Of a DNA stretch of 64,000 nt, positions 2,581-63,305 are shown piece after piece; position 1 is the first letter of the stretch, and every line of letters begins with the position of its first letter. Origin of the DNA: Ascidia mentula (taxonomy: Eukaryota; Chordata; Ascidiacea; Phlebobranchia; Ascidiidae); the NCBI GenBank assembly GCA_947561715.1, contig OX387205.1, positions 9,615,001-9,679,000 on the forward strand, read 5' to 3'. The translations under genes and the position numbers were made by a program. Below the pieces are notes generated by a model. The model saw only the letters and a list, made by a program, of their open reading frames with translations, was not told the DNA's origin and ran no database searches.

Positions 2581-2598
2581 GAATAGCTGTTTTAAATA

Positions 2599-3501
2599 AT
2601 GGATGACTTGGTTGAATCTCTGTCCAGTACGTTTGGAGTGTCAAAGAATCCAAACAACATTTATTCAAATCATCCACGTTTTGATCAGTTCAAGCAGAAA
2701 ACTGCCAGAGGCTCCGACCAAAATGTGCGCCGCGAAAAGTACCTTGCAAATCAGAAAAAGCGAAGATTTGATTTTCAAAATCATGTTCGTTGCTTAGCTC
2801 TTGATGAATGGAGTAATAGAGAAAAACAGTCCAGTGATGAAGAGAATGAAGGCATGGATATTGCAGAAACCATCAAAAAAACACAAAAGCAATACAAAGA
2901 TCAACTCATGCTGTCAGAATGGCTTGTAGAAGTGCCTAGTGATTTTGAAAAGGAATGGGTGATGCGCATATGTCCATGGGGTAAAAGAAATTTGGTGGTG
3001 GCGTCACGTAGTCGGACATGTGCCTACTCAAAAAGTGGATATTGTGTGAATAAGTTTGCCTCAAAATTGCCTGGGGGCAGTTTTGACACAAACTCAGGGT
3101 ACACTGTGCTTGACTGTGTGTTTAATGAGGTAGAAAAAACGTATTATATTTTGGATGTTATGTGTTGGAATGACCATCCTATGTATGACAGTGAAACTGA
3201 ATTCCGCCTGTTTTGGTTGGTCAGCAAGCTTTCAGAGACTCCAGAACTGTTGAAGATAAACAAGAACAATACTTTCAAATTTGTTGGTGTGCCACAACAT
3301 TCCTGTGACAAAGAGTCAATATCCAAAGCCCTCGTGTCTACAGAGAAGGACAAAATTGATGGCCTGTTGTTTTACCACAAGCGTACGCATTACACATTTG
3401 GGTCAACACCGTTGGTTACTTGGCTGAAAGTTCACATGATTAAGGACATTTTAGATATAAACCTACCAGAACCTAGTGCTCAATCTGAAATGACCTTATG
3501 A
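2599..3501 (+). CDS. SNUPN: Snurportin-1, snRNP nuclear import adaptor (intronless)
   Basis: Snurportin-1 binds the trimethylguanosine cap of spliceosomal U snRNPs in the cytoplasm and links them to importin beta for nuclear import. The 300-residue product matches the known family along its length. Residues about 25-65 form the basic importin-beta-binding region (RREKYLANQKKRRFDF). The cap-binding domain starts near QLMLSEW (Trp108) and ends near STPLVTW (Trp275); these correspond to human Trp107 and Trp276, the latter stacking on the cap. Other family blocks are KSGYCVNKF, YYILDVMCW and DGLLFYHK. The human protein is about 360 residues, so this one lacks most of the C-terminal tail, which lies outside the cap fold. 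The frame is uninterrupted, whereas vertebrate SNUPN has several introns; an old retrocopy that replaced its parent, or intron loss, would explain this. The start is the first ATG, preceded by an acceptor-like site and aligned with the human N-terminus. Confidence 0.95.
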   Translation: MDDLVESLSSTFGVSKNPNNIYSNHPRFDQFKQKTARGSDQNVRREKYLANQKKRRFDFQNHVRCLALDEWSNREKQSSDEENEGMDIAETIKKTQKQYKDQLMLSEWLVEVPSDFEKEWVMRICPWGKRNLVVASRSRTCAYSKSGYCVNKFASKLPGGSFDTNSGYTVLDCVFNEVEKTYYILDVMCWNDHPMYDSETEFRLFWLVSKLSETPELLKINKNNTFKFVGVPQHSCDKESISKALVSTEKDKIDGLLFYHKRTHYTFGSTPLVTWLKVHMIKDILDINLPEPSAQSEMTL

Positions 3502-6215: not shown

Positions 6216-9200
6216 ACTCTTAGACAACTTTGCCGATCAAACGGTCATTTGCTTATATACATTTTTATTTTCATCTTTATAAAAAAATATCCGAAACGTT
6301 TGCTTGCAGTGCGCAACGTCACGCGGGAACCAATAACCGCCTTGCGTTTTTCTGTAATGGGCGATTCACATCCAAAATCACTACCTCGGGCTAGGTGCGA
6401 ATACGAACTTACGTCCGATCCAAAATTATGCATTCCAACCAAATGTGCGTAGTGTGTGTCGGGTGCGGCTCCTGAATAATGTATCTGCCTGCAGTAGCGC
6501 CCGATCACGACCTTAAACGCTCCGAACATACGATGATCGTTCGTGCCGCTCCTGGACACGTTTGTTTGTTGGCCGAAGCACCGAGATATCACGAATCGGT
6601 GACGGAGAAAACCCCTTAAGCTGCGTGCATTGTCTGTATGATGTCTGCCGGGTGGACTGGTTCAAGGTATATAGTCACGCGGCCTCGCATGTGGATGGCG
6701 CAAGCTTTGTACAGGTTTGAGGTCCGTTGGTTTAGTTGCGGCATTCCTGTACAACAACCATATCACTCCTTAAATAGCAGTTTGTCGAAATAGTAAACCT
6801 GCACATAGTATTACCACGTATTTTTAATTTTGACTGTCAAATTCGTTGAAAAACACCCGTCGAATTTCATCAACTTGGCAATGGACCGAACCAAAATGTT
6901 GTCACAATTGTCAGAAATACATAAAAGAGTAAAGTACCCAAATCTCCGCACTTGATACGGCACGCCTGCGTTCACCTTCCGTGGCAAACTCTAGAACAAA
7001 CTCGTCCGTTTCAGGTTATAGAGTTCGTCTAATTTGCAACGACCCTTGTACTAGGGCTCATAAATCACACAGCCCGCATTACCGGCGGTGACACGTATTC
7101 CTCCTATACCTCCACAGCCGGCACTAGTCGCGCGGTCATGACACGACACCGTGCTTGATGGCTTTGTTTGATTGCCGCGACCGAAGGCTTCCTTGTCGGG
7201 ACAGCCAGTTTCCAGCGTTCCTCGCTGACCTTTAGGCTTGTTCGACTGGAGGAACTGAATGCTCACGCAAATGCCGCTTTTGTCTCCAAACTGCACGAGG
7301 TGTATGCGTTTGATAGAATGAACTGTGGTCACCTTCAAGTCCGCGTGAACTGTGGTCACCTGCATATATTTTAGTGAAGTTTTTGTCCCCCAAACAACAC
7401 CGAACTGTTTGCATTATGATATTTGTTGTGGCGTGGCTGCAGCTCACAGAACGTTATTGGCCGTACATTGTTTCTTCATTGCTTAACAATTTAACAAAAC
7501 AACCACTAAATTGACAGTGCAGATTATGTGGTATGTGCGTCAAAGGTTCACGACTTTGTAGCAGGCCTTTTGCCTCGTAACCAAAACTTTAAATTGTTAT
7601 CTTCTTCTGGTGTTTTGGGTGCAAAGTGCGTCAATGTACAATTCATTACCCCACGAAAACTCCCCAATTCACTTTCCAACAATAGCTGTAAAGTGTTCAT
7701 CGAAAGTCAGATGTTTTTACTACAAATAAGGTAGTTATATATGTTGAATGCCAAAAGCTAATAGCAGACCTGTCTCTCGAAAGTAAAACATTTGGTGCGG
7801 TTAGCAATGCCCACGGTGCTTGCGTATCTCGTTGTGTTCATCGCAATTGCACCAAGAAGTTGGCACAATTAAAGTGTGGTATCGACAAGTAGTTTTTGAG
7901 TAAAGGCCTGCGATTTTTTTTTTTCTAAAAGCCTTTAGCTTCGTTCTCCTACTGCAGCAGTGTGCTTGTGTCACATGCTGCAACTCGGCAATCGGTGGCC
8001 ACCTGCTGGGAAAAATGACCTTTACTATGCCCGCAACATTAACCGCAAAACGCCAGGCCCGTTTGCATGGTTGGCGACGGGAGCGGAAGCCCACCGATCA
8101 ATAAAAAGCACTCGTCGAAATGGCGCTCGGCGTAAAATAGTTTTGTGGCTGAGCGACGCGACTGGAGGACGGCTGGTGACTTGCCTTACTTGACCCTTCT
8201 TATCCTTACGAGGCTTTAAAACATAATCGTGTTACTGCTGGTAGTCGATGCGTTCGTTTTTGTCTGTTGTTTTGTGATGTGGTTGTAGTTGCTTGGTGTG
8301 ACTTTCAATTCTTGTTTAGGTGAAAACATACACTTTTAAAGTTATAAGACCTCTTTGAACAAGTATCTAGATCACTAAACAGTCTAATATGCAAATAAAG
8401 ACTTAATATCTGATTTTTTTTGACAAGTTATGATTAAAGCATTTAGTTTTTGTTTATTAGTAAAGACTTCTAATACCACAAAACCTCATCCACTTACACA
8501 CCCTTGTATTATGCCAAAGTCGCTTATTCGAAATCCCAAGAACTTTGTGCTTAAAATCAGCCATATCAAAATAAATTTTTTCCCCTGGTTGAGTAGAAAT
8601 AAAATAACCCACAATACCATCACGGACCTTACATAAGACACTCGTCTAAAGACGGAAATGTTAATAAAACGGCCAGAGAACATTGTTATTTGCCTAAGAC
8701 ACGTACCGTTCCGGCCATAAATCACGTAGATCTTGAACCACCTTGTGGAGTGGAACGTAGCCGAACGGTTCCGAGACCTAGATACCATCAATAACTGGTA
8801 CCTGCGTATTTTTGTCTTGAATAGCTTAATAAAGACTTTCACATAAAGGTCCCAACATATAGGTTTGTCCGTCTATTTAATTTTGAGGTTCGGGTTATTT
8901 ATGTTTTGGAAATGAACCATGCAGTGAACGGCAAATCTGTCATTGCGGCTGCAAGAAAATTGCGTCAGGCATTCGGCCGTACCGTGCTCTTGCTCTGACA
9001 GGATACCACAGAAATTGGTGATTGGAATTTGTACACACCCCTTATTCATGCAACCACAAAACACACATTAATACTCGTGGGATCGTTTCAAGGGCTCATT
9101 TTTCAATGTCAGCTGCGCATAATTCGGTCATCTTGTATTCAACAGGGATCGCAAACGTAATTAGTTAAGACAAGCCCCCACTCAGTCCCACTTAATTGCA

Positions 9201-21682: not shown

Positions 21683-24028
21683 TTAAAGAACAGTTTGCTT
21701 TAACACAAAGAGCTTTTGCCCATCAATGTGGTAAACGTAAAAAGGAAACTTGCAAGCAAGGTTTTCAAATGCGACACATTCCACACAACAAGGTTTTGCG
21801 ATTAAATGATGTACACCATACTGGGGATAAAAGTTAGAACAATATTTTCGAACAACATACATCACTTTACTTTCAAAAATAAACATAGCAAGTATGCAGC
21901 CAACATACAAATTTAAATCATGTTTTGACATAATCACATACATGCCAATTTCAAACAAAATATTTTCAACTTTCACTGATTTACCCAATGTGCAATGTAA
22001 AATACTATATCCACCCAACTTTATATTATTTACAATTTCAGAGGAAAACGTAACATTTCTATTAATTATCTCAACATTTGAGTCAAAATAGCCAGTCTCA
22101 AGCAGGCATGACTGCAACAATTGGTGACTGTGTGCCAAAGAATAACATACGTTGATGAAATTTTTGGAATGACGGATTACATTTTTAAAATAAGAGTGTT
22201 TACTTTCGAATCGCAATGTGGATGTATAACAAATTGGGCCAAATTGCAAAATAGTCCAAGGGTAATGTTGTAAGTAATGATGCTTGGGGCGTAAAGGCAC
22301 TTTGGGAAAAAAATGTGTTCTGTATTCCAAATATTCAGATATTAAAGAATCTAAATGGCATAGGGCATTTACATCTAAATGACAAGACACAATTATCTGA
22401 ACAATAGAACGCAAGCACATAACAAGTTTCCAAATTGCATTCTCTGTGTCAACAATTTTATCAAAAATCAGTAGGGGAAACATTCTTAGCATACACCAGT
22501 TTTGTGATGCATTTCCTATCAAACGTTTGCCGACAGAAGATAATTTTACTGGTTTTGAAAGGGCATCCAGGGCGTTGAATTTAAACGACTGTATTCTGCC
22601 ATTTAAAAAATCCAAAGTAAACCATTTATGTTTTACAAAATATGCAATGTAAAGCATTAGGTCATACTGTACAACACCTTCAAAAACATCATGAGCTGTA
22701 CATGGGGGCAAACCAGGGGAAGCAACATGAAAATACTGCATGTCATTCAAAATGCTTCCCTTCAATCCGTTACTATTTTCCATGTGCAAATTGTCATATA
22801 TTGATTTAGTGTAAAGTGTTTTTGTACATGCATGGTCTGTGGAAAACTCTGTACGAGTTATGGTACAATATCTACAAAAATAGGTGGAGGAACTAAAGTT
22901 TGTTGTAAAACCACCAAGCCAGTGACTTCCTAGATTGTCACCACATACACATAACAGGCTGCCACGCACATTAAACCCAACACCAACATCAATACCAGTG
23001 GTCTCCAAAGTTTTTAAGTCATCAAGCAATGGTTTAAATAACATGCTTTTGTTTTCCTCATTAACATTGGCCTCTTTGCACAATAAAACCAATTGAAAAC
23101 AATCTATTTTTGATCGGTTACATGGATACAAATTCTGCAGGGTATAATACACAGCCAAAATCTTGTGCTTTCGTTTGGCGGAACCCAAAGGATTGACAAT
23201 TTCAAATGCATCTTGGTATAAAATGATTTTTAGTGAATATCTGTCATTTTGAAAAAGTGGATTTGACTGAAATATTTTTCCATCTGAAAAGTCATGAAAA
23301 CCTTCAAAGTGTACCAAGGGGTTCAAAAATTGTTGCTTAACTTTTTCATCCTTAAAAAATGTTTTCAAAGTGTCCAGAACTGATATATATTGAAATTTGA
23401 AATTTGCTGAGTGCCCCAAACTTAGTTCAATTGGAGGAACATAATTAAACTTCTGCAAAAACTGTTGTTCTCTTAGATAAGATGAGCCAAAATTGGCAGA
23501 ATCCAAAAAACTGTTCAGCGAATCCTGCTTTTTGAGATCATCTAGTATTTTGCTAGATATATCAGTACAAACATTTTCATCTTTCAAAATGGACTCAAGC
23601 TGAAAATATATCTGAGAAGTGTACTTTGATAGCAACTGTTTCCAATACACAATTATTTTATCAACAGTTTGAATTGGTACCAAATATTTATATTGAAGCA
23701 TAAAATGAAACAGCAAAACATCTTTTTCCCAGTCTTTGTTAATCTGCGATGTAACACTTCTTTGCTCTTCAGTTTCTAACAGAGTACAATTAACCTCCTC
23801 AGTTAAAGTTTCCTGATCTGTTTCGTGTGCCTTTTTCTGCAGTCCGTCGTGGCAACGAGAAAAATGAGACGAAAACGAGGACACAACTGAATAAGTTTTG
23901 TTGCAACTTTCCACGGGGCATTTCATTTCAAATCCTTGACGGATGTGGTTTTTGTAATCTTTCATTTTCTCCTCCCACGTGTTAAACATTTTTTTGCAAA
24001 ATTGCAAATCACAGGCCAAGGAGACCAT
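21683..24028 (-). CDS. EnSpm/CMC-type transposase with N-terminal C2H2 zinc finger
   Basis: A single 781-residue frame. Residues 37-60 form a C2H2 finger (Cys37, Cys42, His55, His60; spacing C-x4-C-x12-H-x4-H). The core has blocks I recognise from metazoan EnSpm-like transposases: LYQDAFEIVNPLG (Asp273), CVCGDNLGSHWLGGF (Asp364) with a nearby CRYC pair, CTAHDVFEGVVQYDL (His446, Asp447, Glu450), RPKHHYLQHYP and RFESKHSYFKNV (Glu608). Asp273 and Asp364 are good candidates for the first two catalytic acids; the third is either Glu450 or Glu608. Such enzymes cut the element out at its inverted termini and insert it elsewhere. The frame is intact. An acceptor-like TTTAGTGTAG sits a few bases before the ATG. 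Known from family: blocks; inferred: catalytic residues and activity. Confidence 0.85.
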   Translation of the reverse strand: MVSLACDLQFCKKMFNTWEEKMKDYKNHIRQGFEMKCPVESCNKTYSVVSSFSSHFSRCHDGLQKKAHETDQETLTEEVNCTLLETEEQRSVTSQINKDWEKDVLLFHFMLQYKYLVPIQTVDKIIVYWKQLLSKYTSQIYFQLESILKDENVCTDISSKILDDLKKQDSLNSFLDSANFGSSYLREQQFLQKFNYVPPIELSLGHSANFKFQYISVLDTLKTFFKDEKVKQQFLNPLVHFEGFHDFSDGKIFQSNPLFQNDRYSLKIILYQDAFEIVNPLGSAKRKHKILAVYYTLQNLYPCNRSKIDCFQLVLLCKEANVNEENKSMLFKPLLDDLKTLETTGIDVGVGFNVRGSLLCVCGDNLGSHWLGGFTTNFSSSTYFCRYCTITRTEFSTDHACTKTLYTKSIYDNLHMENSNGLKGSILNDMQYFHVASPGLPPCTAHDVFEGVVQYDLMLYIAYFVKHKWFTLDFLNGRIQSFKFNALDALSKPVKLSSVGKRLIGNASQNWCMLRMFPLLIFDKIVDTENAIWKLVMCLRSIVQIIVSCHLDVNALCHLDSLISEYLEYRTHFFPKVPLRPKHHYLQHYPWTILQFGPICYTSTLRFESKHSYFKNVIRHSKNFINVCYSLAHSHQLLQSCLLETGYFDSNVEIINRNVTFSSEIVNNIKLGGYSILHCTLGKSVKVENILFEIGMYVIMSKHDLNLYVGCILAMFIFESKVMYVVRKYCSNFYPQYGVHHLIAKPCCVECVAFENLACKFPFYVYHIDGQKLFVLKQTVL

Positions 24029-24429
24029 TCTTACCCTACACTAAATAGCAGAACGAAATCTTAACCCAAACAAACATTATTAATTTGTAATTATTCAATT
24101 AATGCTACTTGCTCTATCGCTACAATACATAATCTATAGCAACTAAAAACATGTTGCACGCGAATGATGCAACTCTCGGCTTCGCCACGAGGCAACTTGC
24201 GCATGCGTAGTAGCCGTTATAGACTAACTCGTTATAGCGAAGAAGGCAGCAGAACTTTATTATATTAGACGGTTAAGAAAGTTAACAAACAATATATAAT
24301 ATTACGTAGTTTGTCACAAGCTGAATGGGATGATTTACGTAACATGCCATTTGGCACGAAATATCACCTTTTAACAAGCCATATACATCCCATACATATA
24401 TAGTTACATTGTTCTATCAGTTGTGAAAA

Positions 24430-38054: not shown

Positions 38055-38859
38055 ATGGCCACCAATTTCGCTGAACTAGACAGCATCGAGTTCGCCTCGC
38101 TTGCGATTGGTGGATGCAACGGCAAGACGCAGCCAATCAGAAACGGCTACGAGGCCAGTTTTAACGACAATAACAACGCAACGTACAACGGGATCAGTCA
38201 TTTTCCTTCGGCCCCACAACCGAACTTAAACTCGTCTTGTGCGCACTTCGGATCGGACCCAAACATACAACCCCAACCATACGCTGTGAAAAACGAACCC
38301 GCCGCTTATCATCCTAGCACAGGTCCAAACCTTAACGCCTACCCCCAAGCACCCCCAGCAACCCCTGGTGGGTTTCCTCCAGGAATGGCCCCAAATGCCA
38401 ATCAGCCCCCAAACGCCGCTTCAACGATGAGGGCTCTGGGTTTTCTTACCGAAAGAACAATTGAGAAGTTTTTTCCCAATGGTAAAAGGCTTTCTCACGC
38501 GCCGACTTCGCGGAAGTCGAGTTTGGGAGGGCAGCCACCCAAACTGGGTGATACTATGGCCCCTCTGAAACGTTCGCAGCCTTACTCGAACCCGAGGGAC
38601 TCGTACAGTGCGAATTACACAAATTACGGCAACTGTGGTGTGCAGAACGGTCGTACCTTGCAGCATCCGCCATACGCTCACCACAGGCGCCAAAACGGTG
38701 TTCAAGCAGGGCCCTGGGTTCCTGGGGTTCCAAACGACTCCGTTAATGTCGGTATGGGCCCCAACGGACTGCCTGTAAAACGGGAATGGAATGATTACCA
38801 TGACAGGGGAATGTTGCGTCATGAGCAGTACTATCCTAACGCGGGCTATTACCCGCAAG
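38055..38859 (+). CDS. RAR: Retinoic acid receptor, first coding exon of form A (A/B region)
   Basis: The ATG at 38055 opens 268 codons and one base, ending at CGCAAG|GTAAGT (phase 1). A stop at 38013 lies upstream in the same frame with no acceptor between, so this is a true first coding exon. The product starts MATNFAELDSIEFASLAIGG and is disordered, rich in Asn, Pro, Gly and Tyr. Two consensus SUMO sites are seen: VKNE (Lys79) and VKRE (Lys242). A basic Ser stretch TSRKSSLGG lies near residue 155. The region is typical of a nuclear receptor ligand-independent activation domain but is far longer than in vertebrate RARs (about 60-90 residues). Link to RAR: exon A2 follows, and its phase-1 end fits the shared exon at 57656, which carries the RAR zinc finger. 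Assignment to RAR is inference from phase, strand and order. Confidence 0.75.
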
Positions 38860-39085
38860 GTAAGTTTGGCTGAAAATTTGCTTCGTTATCCAAACGAAAA
38901 TGTCGAAGATGATTTTTGTGGTTTTGTCGGTTGTCTCTTCCGTTGGTAGTGCGTGTGGATTGTGATATGCGACATATGGGACTCTGTGATTTCTTGGTCG
39001 CCCTGCTTTACATACATTGTATCATTGCTTTAACATTGTAGCGAATTCACGACATATAAATCTAAGCAACGATCTTATTTTGCAG

Positions 39086-39181
39086 ATGGAGGCAACGAAC
39101 GAACCATGATGCGGGACGAGTCGTTTTCGCCGCCAGGAGGCGCACATCACAACGGATTTCCGGGAGCTGAGCGTTGCAGAG
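39086..39181 (+). CDS. RAR: RAR form A, second coding exon
   Basis: Acceptor TCTTATTTTGCAG at 39085, donor GCAGAG|GTACCA; 32 codons, phase 1 in and out. It reads DGGNERTMMRDESFSPPGGA and ends PGAERCR. The exon is symmetric, so skipping keeps the frame. It joins A1 on one side and, over an intron of about 18.5 kb, the shared exon on the other. It has the same disordered style as A1. No domain is visible. Confidence 0.65.
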
Positions 39182-41813: not shown

Positions 41814-43872
41814 CTCTGTTTTATATAGCATGTGTTCCGTGAGGACTTCGCTTATGTTTGTTTGTTGTTTTACCGGATGGGGAACTATTTAGCTTTACGT
41901 GAATGCTACGTTGCTTTATGAAACTTTGTTCTGTGTGTATGTTGTCAGGTATAACCTATAGCTTATATCCGATCCTTTTTCTGTCTGTTTAAAGGAGGTA
42001 ACAAACTGCAACATTTTCCTGACAATTATGGTATCGGTATTAGCACGCATATGTTGTCTTTAATATGTTAAAAAATTGGAATTTGCCATTAAACCAGCAA
42101 ACTTTGGAGTTGCGCCGATTATATTACGCGATGCTAAGCAAAATGGCCTCCTACAAAGGCACCAGTTAGTGCCAACGCATCCACAGCACGCGGTTATCAA
42201 ACTGGGATTTTCGCATTTTGGCTCAACTTGTCTCTTATGAAGCCGATTGTGGGGACTTAACTTTTTGATGAAGCGACTACACTGCTAACAAAGTGCACCG
42301 TAAGCGAGATTCACAATCACGTATTACATAGTTTAGTGGTTTTCTGTGTTTATTAGCTGCATTTTTGTCCGTATGCAGCTGTAAAACGTTTCTTAATCGG
42401 TTAGGTGTGGTCTATACAACTTTTGCGTGTATATATTAGCCCTATTATTGGCCATAAAGCTTACAGTTTTGCATGAAATAGCAGTAAGATGTATTGTATT
42501 TATGTTTCATCAATGTATTAAAAGGTTGTACAAACATGAACTCGATTTAATGTTTCTCAATCTCATTTCATTTTACACAAAGGATAAATTTAATCTGTAA
42601 AATTCTACATGCTCGCAACAAGTGTCAAAGCACTGGGTTTGCTCCATTCCGCGGCGTGTCCTAACGTCCACAAAGTGGCAATCATGTCGCACGACCGCCG
42701 GTGTGTCCCGGAAGTCCGAACAGGACCCTTCTCCTTCAGTTGTCCGCTGGGGGCGTTTTGAACGCTGTGCTTGCGCGGATCAACGAAAATACCGCCCGTT
42801 TCCAAAGAAAACAAAATTACTCGTCCCAAACTCGTGGCTGATAGTAATCTCGCACGAAATATCGACCTCCGCTGTGCAATCAAACGTGGCTATGACGTGA
42901 GCAACGTCGCAAGCTTGTTCTCCTTTGTCGGTCGACGGAATCAGATTTTGACTTCCGATTTTGTTTTTTCAAAGCTCCCTTCATCCGGGGAATCCGTTGT
43001 TGTCTTAACCGCCCACATTCAAGTACTTCGGGCAGCAATATGCCATTTTCTTTTTTCGTTTTGTTTCATTGTTTGTTTATTCGAAGGTCTTTAAAGCGTA
43101 TATTATTCGAAAAAGTTTATCTGCCATTTGTACAAAGCTATGCAATGCTTAGTCATTGGTTTTCCATAAAATCGCTTCCAATTTTGCAGGATTAAAATTT
43201 TCCAATATTTTTTCCCAATGTATAAAACACTTATGTCCATGGTGATGTAGTTTGTTTAGCTTGGAGTTAGTTCCAACTACGTTACATTCCCTCACAATGC
43301 CGCAAGTGATATTATCTGTGTGCTTATGGTTGCGGGCGTCGATCGATGGTGGGATAGCCCAACTACCGTTCAAGACTGAATAATGGCCGCGTTCCATGTC
43401 GGCTTTGAGGGTTGTTGCTGTGTAAGTGGTTTGCTGCGTGTGCGTACGCGCTCGTCATTACGTTCAGCTAACAATGTAACACAACTGCCTGCAAGCAAAT
43501 TGGAACTATTTCGATGCGACTTGAGCGCATTTTAGGAAATCGACCCCTCAAAAGATTGATGTGCTCTTTGCAATAACAATTCTTGATTGTAACAAACCGC
43601 ACGCCTTGCTTTTGTACGTTGGAGTGAGAAAATTTAAACAAGAATCTTTGCACCGTCTATAGTTACGTATTGAGTTTAAAACTAAAACGCACTAACGTTG
43701 CCATAGCAATCAGCCCCGGGCCACGTACTGCATGCGTTTAATTCCTTACCAAAACCGCACCTAATCCGCTCACGGCGATTGTGCAAACACAAACAAGCAC
43801 CTCGGGCTGCGAAGCGCTTTCTGCCGCTTGTGGCGCCCTGGCGCTCCACTGCGCAAGCCCCACCGGTGCCCG

Positions 43873-43889
43873 GGTTCACCTGAAGGTCA
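43873..43889 (+). promoter_or_regulatory. DR5 retinoic acid response element 1
   Basis: GGTTCA-CCTGA-AGGTCA: two half sites fitting RGKTCA in direct orientation with a 5-bp spacer, the classic binding site of RAR/RXR heterodimers. The first half site is identical to that of the vertebrate RARB2 element (GGTTCA-CCGAA-AGTTCA), and four of five spacer bases match. It lies in a GC-rich patch in the intron between the two alternative RAR first exons. Confidence 0.8.
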
Positions 43890-43903
43890 GCTCCTCATAC
43901 CGG

Positions 43904-43920
43904 GGTTCATTGAAAGGTCA
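43904..43920 (+). promoter_or_regulatory. DR5 retinoic acid response element 2
   Basis: GGTTCA-TTGAA-AGGTCA: again a perfect DR5 in the same orientation, starting 31 bp after the first, close to three turns of the helix, so both would face the same side. The stretch TTGAAAG keeps the GAAAG that follows the first half site in vertebrate RARB2. In the rest of the window I found no other DR5 when scanning for RGKTCA pairs on both strands. Confidence 0.8.
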
Positions 43921-46900
43921 CTCGGCGTTGTGGAGCTCCCCGCCACGACTGGTCTCGCACCGTTGCCCGCGTCGGTATTTCAGGCGGCGGTAATTTTTGC
44001 GGCTCACGGCTTGTGGCAAGGTGCAAGTCATGCCCGTATTCGACGGTATACGTGTGCTTCAAGGTTGTTTCGACGCGAGCCGTATTAAATGAGGGAGTAG
44101 AGGTTTCGCCTCAAATTATGGCGGTTCTATGCGAATTTTCAAAACCACTGCCCTTGTTGTCGTGCCTTTAATGGACTACTAACTTCTTTGAGCTAATATT
44201 TAAAGCAACATGTTTGTTGTAGTTTTTCTTGTGTTGGGTGCATATGTTTACTTAATGAAGCAAACAACTTTTGCTTGTGCTAACTGCACTCGTGCAGTGT
44301 ATTCAAAACACTTACTTCAGCACACAAGAAGAACAAGATTAGCTCAATGGTTCATTTAAAATGACGCTGTTGATCGGCTATCATGGCTTGTCGCAAAGCT
44401 TGAACTATCACGAACTGGGCAGCGCAACGCGTGTGAACGTGAATGCTTAATTGTTAATACGGTTTTTCCCACCAGTTTATCGTGGGAACACAGTTGCATG
44501 CAAAGCGACAGGAGCATAAGGTGGCCTTGGCATTAACCTGCGACTCGCACTCAAAAATCAATGCCGTGTATTTTGTTGTGTACCAATGTTGGGTAGAGAA
44601 TATGTAAGATATGCAGATCTTCTGTATGTTGTGGTCCGCAGTTCGGCGAATCTTGTTCGATCGGTTCCACAACGGCGTTCATTCGTGTTTAGCCACAGAC
44701 AAACCAACCACTGTTTACAACGAAAAACTATCCTTAGTCAATCCTTCGTGATCGTGTTGGCATGGCTGCCGCAAGAGGCTTACAGTGCGCCGGTGCGGTC
44801 TCGGCTTGCTCGCGAATGCGCAATCCTCCACCTTCTTTAAAGTATTAATTAATATCTAACGCCCCAGGCGCATTTCCGTTGTCCGCGTTGTATTTCAGTA
44901 TCGTCTATGACATTTTGAACGATTGAGTGAATGCCCTTTGTTTTTCAACTGTTTATCGATCGTCAGGACTAATAAAATAGATCAAAATTGGTTGTTTTTC
45001 TGTCGAAAATAATTAAATCTCAAAGCGCCAGAATCGTTTAAATTAGTTTTGTCGTCGCCACCAAATTTCTACAACCAACGCATTTCTAAATTATTCAGAA
45101 GGCTGTCGTATTATGTAACCAGTGTGTCCTGGATGGAAAATGTTAAATGACACTTTATTAGATTCTGATGTACCATACCCTGTTAATTAGGCAACAACAG
45201 TTCCAGTCTATGCGCAAACCGGTTCCATAACCAAACTGACGTTAATTTTGAACCAAAATGACGTTAATTTCGCTTTAGCTTGATGGTGATGAACTGACTT
45301 CGTTTTCGAAGCTAATGATTTAACATGGTGGTTTAAAGCCACATCAAATCGCAGTTTCCTGCATAACAATCTTAGATTATAGTTTAGTCGGAAATTAGTC
45401 CGCAATAATTCCTATTCGTCCTGACATTTTCCACCTCAACAACACCGAAAACTTTGGAGGCATGTTTTATGAAGTTAACAAAGCAGGTTTGTCGCTTGTT
45501 GGGTGTGCGATTCCTTCTTATTCAGGACGTAACATGGTGTACCCGCTTTCCTAATAGTGGTTAACTAGGAGAATGAGCTCAGTGTAATGTTTTCGTGAAG
45601 ATAATTATTATGTGGAATTTTTTCTGCACCCGCTAGAAGTAAATAAACGTTTTGTAGCCAGTTATTCCCACATACATTCAGCGTATCGCTGCAAAGCATG
45701 TGTGAAATGACCTAAATCAACATAAATACACATAAAAAGCAACGGGATCTTCACTACTGAACGTCCCACGCCACATTGGCGCCCTTTCGTCCAATTGTGC
45801 AGCAAGCTGAACACAAGAACTTTGTGTATACCTCTTGAACACTGCTGCTAAATATCCGTTCTGATAATAGAATCCGGCAAATCGCATGGAAAGACATACC
45901 GACTCTGCAATTACATACCGAGTTACCAGCGTTCCTCCCAATTATGTAGGCAGCGGATACAGGAGAAAATATCACGACAAGAAGCGTTCGCTGCCTTTCC
46001 TACAATTAATCTCTTGACTTTTTACACTTAATGCTGGTGATTTTAGACTGTGGATGTATTTTTATGACTCCGCAGCCGTGGGTTTGCCTTGGGTCGATAC
46101 CTTTGTCTTGTTGATGTCGCAAGTGGGCGCTGTTGTCGCCGTTTCAGATGGAAAATAAGAGTTTTCGCCAAACTTCGACTGACTTTTCGCCAAAAAGTGA
46201 ATTTTCTTCCAGGAAAGTCGACTGACTTTGGTTTCAAATACACAAACAGGTTTAACCTGTGAACCGATACTATAGTTGCAGCCGCATATAGAACGTGGTC
46301 CGATACGTAACAAAAACATCGAACTTCTAACATGGCCACGGCGTTATTCTGTGTGCTTAGTCATTCTTCCTCTTGTTACACGTATCCATCCTTTTATGCA
46401 ACGACCTCTACCCAACTATGACGTACAGCATGCAATTCACACAACCAGAACGTGAATTCTCTCGTCGAACGTTCAACTCAGTTCGTGCCGGCGCCGGCTT
46501 GGTTTTCGTTGGCGTCTGTGTCTTTGTCGGAAGTGAGTAATCCTTCCGTGTCTCTTTGATTGACGTACCCCTCCTGTTGATTAATGTTACATAACCAACA
46601 GTCGAACTCGTATTTGGTTTTAGATCTGTTTTAAAACAGTGTATATATAGGTCCAACCCCAAAACGATCTGTAGCACCCCCATGGGTGTACAGTCATCGA
46701 TTTACATCAAACTGCTGTATAATTTACGTTAACTGTTGTATCAGGGAAGTACTAATCACTCGTTACATAACACCTAATTTTTGTACGCTGTATTGCGATA
46801 GTTGCAAATTAATCTTTGCGTTAAAAGCAAAACAAGTTGGGCGTGGTAGCAACTATCACACATATTCTCCACCATCGTAAATTCAAAAGATAAGCAAAAG

Positions 46901-52900: not shown

Positions 52901-53578
52901 TGCTCAGTGTAGATTAACGTTTATACAAAATGTGATTGCTAGACCGCTATTACGCCAGTTCGTTTGCAGGTCAGCTCAGCCCTAGACTCCCGTCGTACTC
53001 TTCTGTGTCTACAGTTTAATGTTTCAGTTAACAAATACCCCCATGCTACAAACCGCCAAAAAAACTCATGTTTCACCTAAATAATTATCGAAAAATAGAA
53101 CAGGTTGTTGCGGTCACGTTGTTTACCAGTTTTTGCCCAAACTGTGGGAAAAGCTGCTCTAGTTATCAACTGGCCACACCCCCAACAACTCTTACTACTG
53201 TTCTGCTAGGGTGCCATAAATTGGGCATTATTTAGGAGTGGTGTCAGGTGTAGTCGAAATTGAGCCAAGCTCGTTTTTCAGCCGTCGAATGCGCTTTCAG
53301 TAAGTTTGTGACATTAAAATTGCATGCGCTGCGTGTCGCCGCATTTCAAGTTACAGTCATTCGCGCCAGGTCTTTTAATTCCAATTACCGAGCTCTTTTC
53401 ATTTCTCCACAGTTAAACAAAGAGTCTTGAGACGCTACTGTAGCCCTGAAACTTGTTACCCTTTGATCAAAGTTGGTAAAATCGCGCCTTTTCCAGCGCG
53501 AGCCACTGTCTTGCCTCCCTAAGAATCTGACAAAAGCGCGCATCTTTGTGTGACCCGAAAGAATACTAGTCTGCAACA
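43921..53578. other. RAR intron, part 2, and region upstream of form B
   Basis: No exons recognised. CpG-rich patches occur near 44 kb and 52.3-52.5 kb; the latter (GAGAGAATGAGAGAGAAAAA area) looks like leader-type purine-rich sequence and may belong to a promoter or 5' leader of form B. I see no clear TATA or initiator pair there. The small perfect hairpin ACTGCAC-TC-GTGCAGT lies near 44285. Confidence 0.45.
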
Positions 53579-53810
53579 ATGTCAATGGAATTTCAGCAGC
53601 AATGGCGCAACTGTATGAACGGCATCTTGATGGACATCTTTACCCCAACTACCTCCACCATGTGTGGCCCACCGGTTAACCACGGGATGGGTTGTATGTA
53701 TAGTGGCATGCAATCAATGGATTCGCCACCACCGCTTCATAATCTCAGCCTGAACCCGCAGAACAACTACCATCACAACCAGTACTACCAATGGGAAAAC
53801 AACCAGAGAT
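53579..53810 (+). CDS. RAR: Retinoic acid receptor, alternative first coding exon (form B)
   Basis: The ATG at 53579 opens 77 codons and one base, ending AGAGAT|GTACGT (phase 1). It starts MSMEFQQQWRNCMNGILMDI and continues Met/Asn/Pro-rich to QYYQWENNQR. It is a short disordered N-terminal segment, about the length of the A region in vertebrate RARs. Its phase fits the shared exon at 57656, 3.8 kb downstream. Two mutually exclusive N-termini on a common receptor body, from two promoters, is the known design of vertebrate RAR genes (for example RARA1 and RARA2). The start is the first ATG; a second Met lies two codons on. The upstream acceptor-like TACTAG is weak. Confidence 0.75.
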
Positions 53811-57655: not shown

Positions 57656-57849
57656 CATCTCCAGATAGCGTTGGATTGTCGTCGACTGGCAGCAGCTACT
57701 CCGGGTCGGAATCGGAGGGTTTGGGCCACATGGCCCAGTCGTGCCCTCCGTCTCCACCTCCACCACCACGAACCTACAAACCTTGTTTTGTGTGCGGCGA
57801 CAAATCGTCCGGATATCACTATGGCGTGGCATCTTGCGAAGGCTGCAAG
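57656..57849 (+). CDS. RAR: RAR shared exon: end of A/B region and first zinc finger
   Basis: Acceptor TTTTTACTCGCAG at 57655, donor TGCAAG|GTAAGG at 57849; phase 1 in, phase 0 out. The exon reads [20 protein letters not shown], then [20 protein letters not shown] and the rest of the first C4 finger, ending CEGCK. The [17 protein letters not shown] block is diagnostic for RAR. The Ser in PPSPPP corresponds to the CDK7 site of human RARA (Ser77) in the proline-rich motif. The P-box (CEGCKG across the junction) is the RAR type that reads AGGTCA. Differences from human are GDK for QDK and ASC for SAC. The exon break after CEGCK is the usual site in this family. A preceding phase-1 exon (A2, B or possibly U5) must supply the first base of the junction codon. 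Confidence 0.95.
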
Positions 57850-62306: not shown

Positions 62307-62448
62307 GGTTTCTTTCGTCGCAGCGTGCAGAAAAATATGCAGTACACGTGTCACCGCACTAAGAACTGCGAGATCAACAAGTCGACGCGCAGTCGTTGCC
62401 AGTACTGTCGCTTCCAGAAGTGCCTGAATGCTGGGATGTTGAGGGAAT
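62307..62448 (+). CDS. RAR: RAR exon: second zinc finger
   Basis: Acceptor TCTTTTCCAG at 62306, donor GGGAAT|GTAAGT at 62448; phase 0 in, phase 1 out. It reads [20 protein letters not shown], followed by the second C4 finger with [14 protein letters not shown] and the start of the C-terminal extension. GFFRRS(I/V)QKNM-x-YTCHR-x-KNC is the RAR signature. Human has INKVTRNRC where this protein has INKSTRSRC. The four zinc cysteines of the second finger and the dimerisation D-box spacing are all present. Confidence 0.96.
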
Positions 62449-63114
62449 GTAAGTCCTTAAAAGCAAAAGTTTGTGTGACCTTAAAAGCAAAGTTTGAATG
62501 ATGCTGCGTATTGAACCGGACACTGAAAAAAAAAACTTTCAAACACCACTGCACAAAGGCTTATATACCATCCAATAATGTGCACAGTATTTAACTAAAC
62601 GATAACCCGGATCTACAATAGTCAAAATAACTGGCCCGGAACGCTCCTTTATGTAACGTATAATCAATTTTCACGTCAGGGTGTTTGACGTCAGAAATTT
62701 GGCACGTGACGGTCAAGCATCACTACCCGCGCCGTGGTCTGAGAACGGCGGAAATAATTGCGCCTGCTTTAAGACCGACAGGAAACGGCCGGCAACTTTG
62801 AACTGCAAGCGAATCTATTGCTGGCTATTTTGTATGGCAGTGATGGCCTTTGCGTTATCATCTGTATCCGTACCAGGGCCATAAGGCGAACTATTGACTT
62901 TATAACGATTGGCACGGCTTTGAACTCGTATGCAACATGTTAAAATATAAGAAATTTTCATTGTGCAAGTTTGAACAAGCTTTAACTCTGCACGCAACTA
63001 ATAGGCGCATGGCATTCTTGTTTTGGAAATAATAAACGTTCAACAGTGCGCAACGTGTTTTTTATCGGCTGGAAAACGACCTACCTTAATATCATTCTCT
63101 TTTGCGCTCTCCAG
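62449..63114. other. RAR intron between zinc finger 2 and hinge exons
   Basis: A 666-bp intron with no feature that stands out apart from a short direct repeat of TGTGACCTTAAAAGCAAA-like sequence near its start (62455-62500). Confidence 0.6.
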
Positions 63115-63305
63115 CGGTAAGAAACGACCGGAACAAGAAGCGTGGAAAGGAAAAGGAGCAGCGAAATCACTCGACTGAGAATGGAAACCCGACGTCACCG
63201 GAGGAAGTGCTATGTCCTCCTGAGATTGAAAATCTAGTGGCGGCCGTCGCCAAATCACACGTCGAAACCTTTCCAAATACCAGCACGCTGAACCAGTACA
63301 AAGTG
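63115..63305 (+). CDS. RAR: RAR exon: hinge and start of ligand-binding domain (gene continues past the window)
   Basis: Acceptor TTGCGCTCTCCAG at 63114. The junction codon plus VRNDRNKKRGKEKEQ matches human ESVRNDRNKKKKE, the end of the DNA-binding extension and a nuclear localisation signal. A linker (STENGNPTSPEEVLCP) follows, and then helix 1 of the ligand-binding domain, PEIENLVAAVAKSHVETFP, corresponding to human PEVGELIEKVRKAHQETFP. The exon ends at AAAGTG|GTAATT (63305) or, in the same phase, at AAA|GTGGTA (63302). The remaining helices, the ligand pocket and AF-2 are not in the 695 bp that follow, so ligand binding cannot be judged here. Confidence 0.93.

Follow-up and report, generated by a model that had tools for sequence, protein, structure and literature searches.

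A closely spaced pair of DR5 elements between the alternative first exons of the Ascidia mentula RAR gene is a candidate autoregulatory element

Results

The RAR gene of A. mentula has two 5' ends

The window analyzed here is a 64-kb stretch of the A. mentula genome (C73:9615001-9679000), and genome-wide searches covered 195.8 Mb in 79 contigs. The features of interest are listed in Table 1; the borders of the exons were set from homology and splice signals. From the B region into the ligand-binding domain, the encoded protein is 77% identical to the RAR of Clavelina lepadiformis, 75% identical to that of Ciona savignyi and about 60% identical to vertebrate RARs, and its DNA-binding and ligand-binding regions align with solved RARs, including a solved RAR-gamma. 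By homology, then, the gene is RAR. The exons for the ligand-binding domain lie beyond the window, with a match to this domain at C73:9679476.

Table 1. Features of the RAR locus, in window coordinates.
Feature	Position	Strand	Description
RAR first coding exon, long isoform	38055..38859	+	268 codons; phase-1 donor GTAAGT
Second coding exon, long isoform	39086..39181	+	62% identity to P0123 residues 270-306
G+C peak, candidate enhancer core	43800..43999	.	G+C 0.645; holds both DR5 elements
DR5 element 1	43873..43889	+	GGTTCA-n5-AGGTCA, spacer CCTGA; GGTTCACCTGAAGGTCA; exact match
DR5 element 2	43904..43920	+	GGTTCA-n5-AGGTCA, spacer TTGAA; GGTTCATTGAAAGGTCA; exact match
RAR first coding exon, short isoform	53579..53810	+	starts MSMEFQQQWRNCMNGILMDIF; phase-1 donor
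Shared exon, B region and first zinc finger of DNA-binding domain	57656..57849	+	
Shared exon, second half of DNA-binding domain	62307..62448	+	
Hinge region match	63096..63305	+	tblastn with P0123; exon borders approximate

The first exon of the long form shares 60% identity along its length with the N-terminus of the Phallusia mammillata RAR P0123 (694 aa), and the two long-form exons together match roughly the first 306 residues of this protein. The match to the second exon slightly overruns both of its borders, which are AG and GT and whose phases join the first exon and the exon at 57656. The short-form exon is 62-63% identical to the N-terminus of the C. lepadiformis RAR, and the C. savignyi RAR is alike by eye. 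Both first-exon forms join the 57656 exon in phase 1 to give SPDSVGLSS, as in Clavelina and Phallusia. The possibility that the open frame at 38 kb lies outside RAR was dropped; its 268 residues, searched within a 659-aa model, matched the Phallusia RAR, and the exon searched alone gave no match at E 0.001 among 198 candidates of 0.55-1.75 times its length.

The A region of the long form is about 300 residues long (38055-39181), and its first 268 residues matched only the Phallusia RAR, one of 723 candidates; this region is possibly special to the Ascidiidae. It also contains two VKxE motifs (VKNE and VKRE) that by eye resemble SUMO sites. A good-looking splice acceptor, TTTCATTTCTCCACAG, is found at 53397-53412 (cut at 53412/53413), 166 bp before the short-form ATG. 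This acceptor may mean that the 5' end of the short form comes from elsewhere, either as a spliced 5' UTR (in cis) or by addition of a spliced leader (in trans).

Upstream of RAR, the only ordinary gene recognized among six frames scanned was that for Snurportin-1 (coding frame 2596-3501, plus strand; m3G cap-binding domain, E 3e-78). A 785-aa open frame on the minus strand (21683-24040) gave a weak match to Transposase_21 (tnp2; E 6e-6) that falls short of the curated cut-off, and is possibly a DNA transposon.

Two exact DR5 elements lie between the RAR first exons

Direct repeats of RGKTCA with a 5-base spacer occur twice on one strand within the 18,474-bp intron of the long RAR form, 4,692 bp 3' of the second long-form exon and 9,659 bp 5' of the short-form ATG. 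They are therefore placed between alternative RAR first exons, as in RARB2, the exons in question (38055, 39086 and 53579) being recognized by homology. The starts of the two elements are 31 bp apart, which by arithmetic amounts to ~2.95 turns at 10.5 bp/turn. A search of both strands of the window for strict RGKTCA direct repeats with spacers of 0-8 bases returned these two elements only. Relaxing the half-site to RGKTSA added two DR5s (16602 and 37948) and two DR4s (7319 and 7346). The DR4s belong to a segment of the minus strand (7319-7361) in which AGGTGACCACAGTTCA is present twice, identically and 27 bp apart, and which is probably a small tandem repeat. A preliminary description of this DNA had claimed a RAR gene with two perfect, helically phased DR5s in the same orientation, 31 bp apart, between two alternative first exons and with no other DR5 in 64 kb; our results agree with each of these points, the last of them for the strict half-site on both strands.

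Two trivial origins of the pair were considered. When the 31-bp units are compared outside the half-sites, elements 1 and 2 agree at 9 of 33 positions, which is about chance level, and a recent tandem duplication is therefore ruled out. An origin from a repeat or transposon was likewise ruled out, since the 380 bp from 43721 to 44100 matched only itself in the genome in a search that skips very common words. The elements lie in the 200-bp window (step 20) with the highest G+C content between 39200 and about 57650, a region with a mean of 0.437 and a standard deviation of 0.060.

An intronic enhancer is favored over a third promoter

The preliminary description had left the choice between an intronic enhancer and a promoter near 44 kb. 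As a promoter, the pair would be the proximal part of a third RAR start, resembling RARB2, from which a non-coding exon is spliced to the acceptor at 53412/53413. The location of the pair in the G+C peak of the intron is in keeping with such a promoter, as is the acceptor itself if it signals a 5' end from elsewhere; however, trans-splicing, which is frequent for ascidian mRNAs, would account for the acceptor without any exon at 44 kb. No TATA-like word was present on either strand of 43701-44700, so that the RARB2 arrangement, in which a DR5 directly precedes the TATA box and the start site, was not found, although a promoter of the TATA-less kind with a weak donor would still be compatible with these results. 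Furthermore, 43920-44700 contained no strong splice donor: with an approximate matrix, the best donor scored 2.2; two RAR donors reached 8.7 and 7.5, but two further ones scored only 1.2 and -0.5. Because the pair is far from both coding first exons, no TATA-like word is nearby and the donors are weak, an intronic enhancer is likelier than a promoter at 44 kb, which we consider unlikely. Thus, the enhancer half of the original proposal is favored, and the promoter half gained no specific support.

RAR and RXR are both encoded in the genome

Matches to the DNA-binding domain of RXR were found on the same contig as RAR (C73:11224555 and 11224824). The genome thus encodes both RAR and, as judged from this domain, RXR. 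It contains many other nuclear receptors as well, with 37 exon-level matches to the DNA-binding-domain family, and the pair might be a genuine site at which the main factor is a relative of COUP-TF, TR2/4 or HNF4 that damps or competes with RAR/RXR. According to PMC10218549, HNF4-alpha also acts on a DR5 of human RARB2, and TR2/4 is said in PMC8387019 to bind amphioxus RAREs. However, an RGKTCA DR5 has the classical spacing for RAR/RXR, as described in PMC5247814, and the position of the pair within RAR is best explained by RAR; a shared site would, moreover, be compatible with autoregulation. We therefore regard a main role for another receptor as quite improbable.

DR5s were also sought at other loci. 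A CYP26-like exon is present at C1:19212687, and the query that identified it had two more matches nearby. A strict DR5, AGTTCAGCAGGAGGTCA (C1:19232617-19232633, minus strand; AGTTCA-n5-AGGTCA), is located about 20 kb upstream of this exon, and was rejected as a CYP26 element because 20 kb is too far to count. Around Hox1, which served as a positive control, no strict DR5 was found in C71:10258001-10266713 (about 8.7 kb), where a relaxed DR2 was present; this result speaks against a broad role of DR5s in the genome. A homeobox exon with a homeodomain that, by eye, looks Gsx-like has another strict DR5, GGGTCACACAGAGGTCA (C72:1547219-1547235), about 1.2 kb downstream.

The pair exceeds chance expectation in number and arrangement

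The shuffled-control check suggested in the preliminary description was run with the strict DR5 pattern. Across 300 dinucleotide-preserving shuffles of the window, strict DR5s averaged 0.13; two shuffles had at least two, and a same-strand pair within 100 bp appeared in none. Genome-wide, with repeats left in, there were 503 strict DR5s (268 + 235) vs 396 (201 + 195) for the reversed pattern, or about 0.16 per 64 kb. The excess over all half-site types is modest, and most DR5 words are therefore probably non-functional. A uniform density predicts 0.065 same-strand pairs within 100 bp for the genome as a whole and about 0.00001 for a 30-kb locus.

Sites ending in AGGTCA were examined by subtype (Table 2). 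The 178 RGKTCA-n5-AGGTCA sites (36 + 69 + 25 + 48; the remaining 325 of the 503 strict DR5s were listed in part) include only one pair within 1 kb, the RAR pair at 31 bp, the next closest being 1,386 bp apart, and the RAR pair is likewise the only close one among the 36 sites of its own subtype. AGGTCA-n5-AGGTCA is in excess over its reversed control and AGGTCA-n7-AGGTCA is not, which links the excess of this half-site type to a 5-base spacer. This is as expected if selection keeps RAR/RXR sites, in counts that include repeats and with n7 as the sole comparison spacing.

Table 2. Genome-wide counts of AGGTCA-ending direct repeats.
Pattern	Genome	Reversed control	Remark
GGTTCA-n5-AGGTCA	36	19	
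AGGTCA-n5-AGGTCA	69	18	
AGTTCA-n5-AGGTCA	25	10	
GGGTCA-n5-AGGTCA	48	12	24 of 48 in one C69 array
AGGTCA-n7-AGGTCA	41	43	9 of 41 in one array on C1

Some of these sites belong to repeats. The C69 array (C69:19284520-19619104, minus strand) consists of 24 GGGTCA-n5-AGGTCA copies with a near-identical spacer, mostly 4-20 kb apart, and is a repeat family bearing a perfect DR5. Several of the 36 GGTTCA-n5-AGGTCA sites have one common spacer and resemble repeat copies. A triple-half-site pattern with a 14-bp gap had four genomic matches, against three for the reversed control, and the three other genomic loci with this pattern contained no strict DR5 pair.

Altogether, by shuffles, genome density and subtype counts, the pair is more than chance would give, and it is very improbable that two functionless DR5-like words simply fell close together in a long intron, as the abundance of such words genome-wide might suggest, given how few close same-strand pairs are expected and that the shuffles produced none.

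Discussion

We consider it probable, at roughly 0.66, that the DR5 pair acts as an intronic response element for RAR/RXR and that RAR thereby controls its own gene in the way known from RARB2. We infer that heterodimers formed by A. mentula's own RAR and RXR would occupy both of the helically aligned sites. In the absence of ligand, RAR/RXR bound there would repress RAR, and with retinoic acid it would increase RAR transcription. The likeliest responder would be the short isoform, the first exon of which begins 9.66 kb downstream of the pair.

The DR5 element type and the autoregulation of RAR are already known from vertebrates. What is new is the candidate element in a tunicate RAR gene, between alternative first exons; among the literature matches listed (titles and abstract openings), none described a RARE within the RAR gene of a tunicate. 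Tunicates form the sister group to vertebrates, but few of the retinoic acid response elements known so far come from them. In one account (PMC3227721), retinoic acid elicits little response from Ciona embryos, and another describes a patterning role for retinoic acid in Ciona (PMC3458022). A 48-bp candidate within RAR makes receptor autoregulation outside the vertebrates directly testable, and the pair can be sought in Phallusia and in further ascidian genomes.

Comparison with known response elements

The response element of Ciona Hox1, as cited in PMC3227721, resembles the present case in its setting, an ascidian developmental gene, and differs from it in its target gene.

The DR5 RAREs of amphioxus and vertebrate CYP26 offer a closer parallel. 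Amphioxus DR5s bound by RAR/RXR in vitro follow the spacer rule NNN(A/G)(A/C/G), and 12 of 13 CYP26 DR5s bound RAR/RXR in vitro, according to PMC5247814. The spacers of elements 1 and 2 both fit this rule, as do those of 13 of 33 other DR5s in the A. mentula genome. Further features in common are the consensus and feedback onto a member of the retinoic acid pathway, and, in the account given in PMC5247814, a CYP26 locus is also surrounded by several DR5s, which in some cases lie kilobases away from the start codon. In contrast, the CYP26 target is a degrading enzyme, giving negative feedback, whereas the target in A. mentula would be the receptor.

RARB2 is transcribed from an internal, second promoter. 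There are two DR5s in the human RARB2 promoter, and RARB is under positive autoregulation by retinoids, as reported in PMC10218549; one of the RARB2 DR5s lies 3 bp upstream of the TATA box according to PMC8997856. The A. mentula gene shares with RARB2 the presence of two DR5s in a RAR gene and the first half-site GGTTCA, and each of its elements is identical to the RARB2 element GGTTCACCGAAAGTTCA at 14 of 17 positions. Unlike the promoter-proximal sites of RARB2, the A. mentula pair is separated from the coding first exons by 4.7 kb and 9.7 kb, and its second half-site is AGGTCA rather than AGTTCA. In the spacer and flanks, element 2 matches RARB2 at 7 of 12 positions (binomial 0.014) and element 1 at 4 of 12, and the best of 33 other DR5s reached 6 of 12, a value attained by 6 of them. 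Homology of element 2 to RARB2 beyond the half-sites (GAA in the spacer, then CTCG) is thus weak and was not accepted. Therefore, the close likeness to RARB2 claimed in the preliminary description holds for the half-sites but does not clearly rise above that of other DR5s in the spacer and flanks.

Because this similarity is weak, the present comparison fits an ancestral as well as a separate origin. It is doubtful, in our estimate, that DR5 autoregulation between two RAR first exons predates the vertebrate RAR duplications. If it does, the tunicate layout of two starts and two DR5s would have been kept from the source of the vertebrate P2 promoters (RARB2 and its kin), and this ancestral layout would act in A. 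mentula as an intron enhancer.
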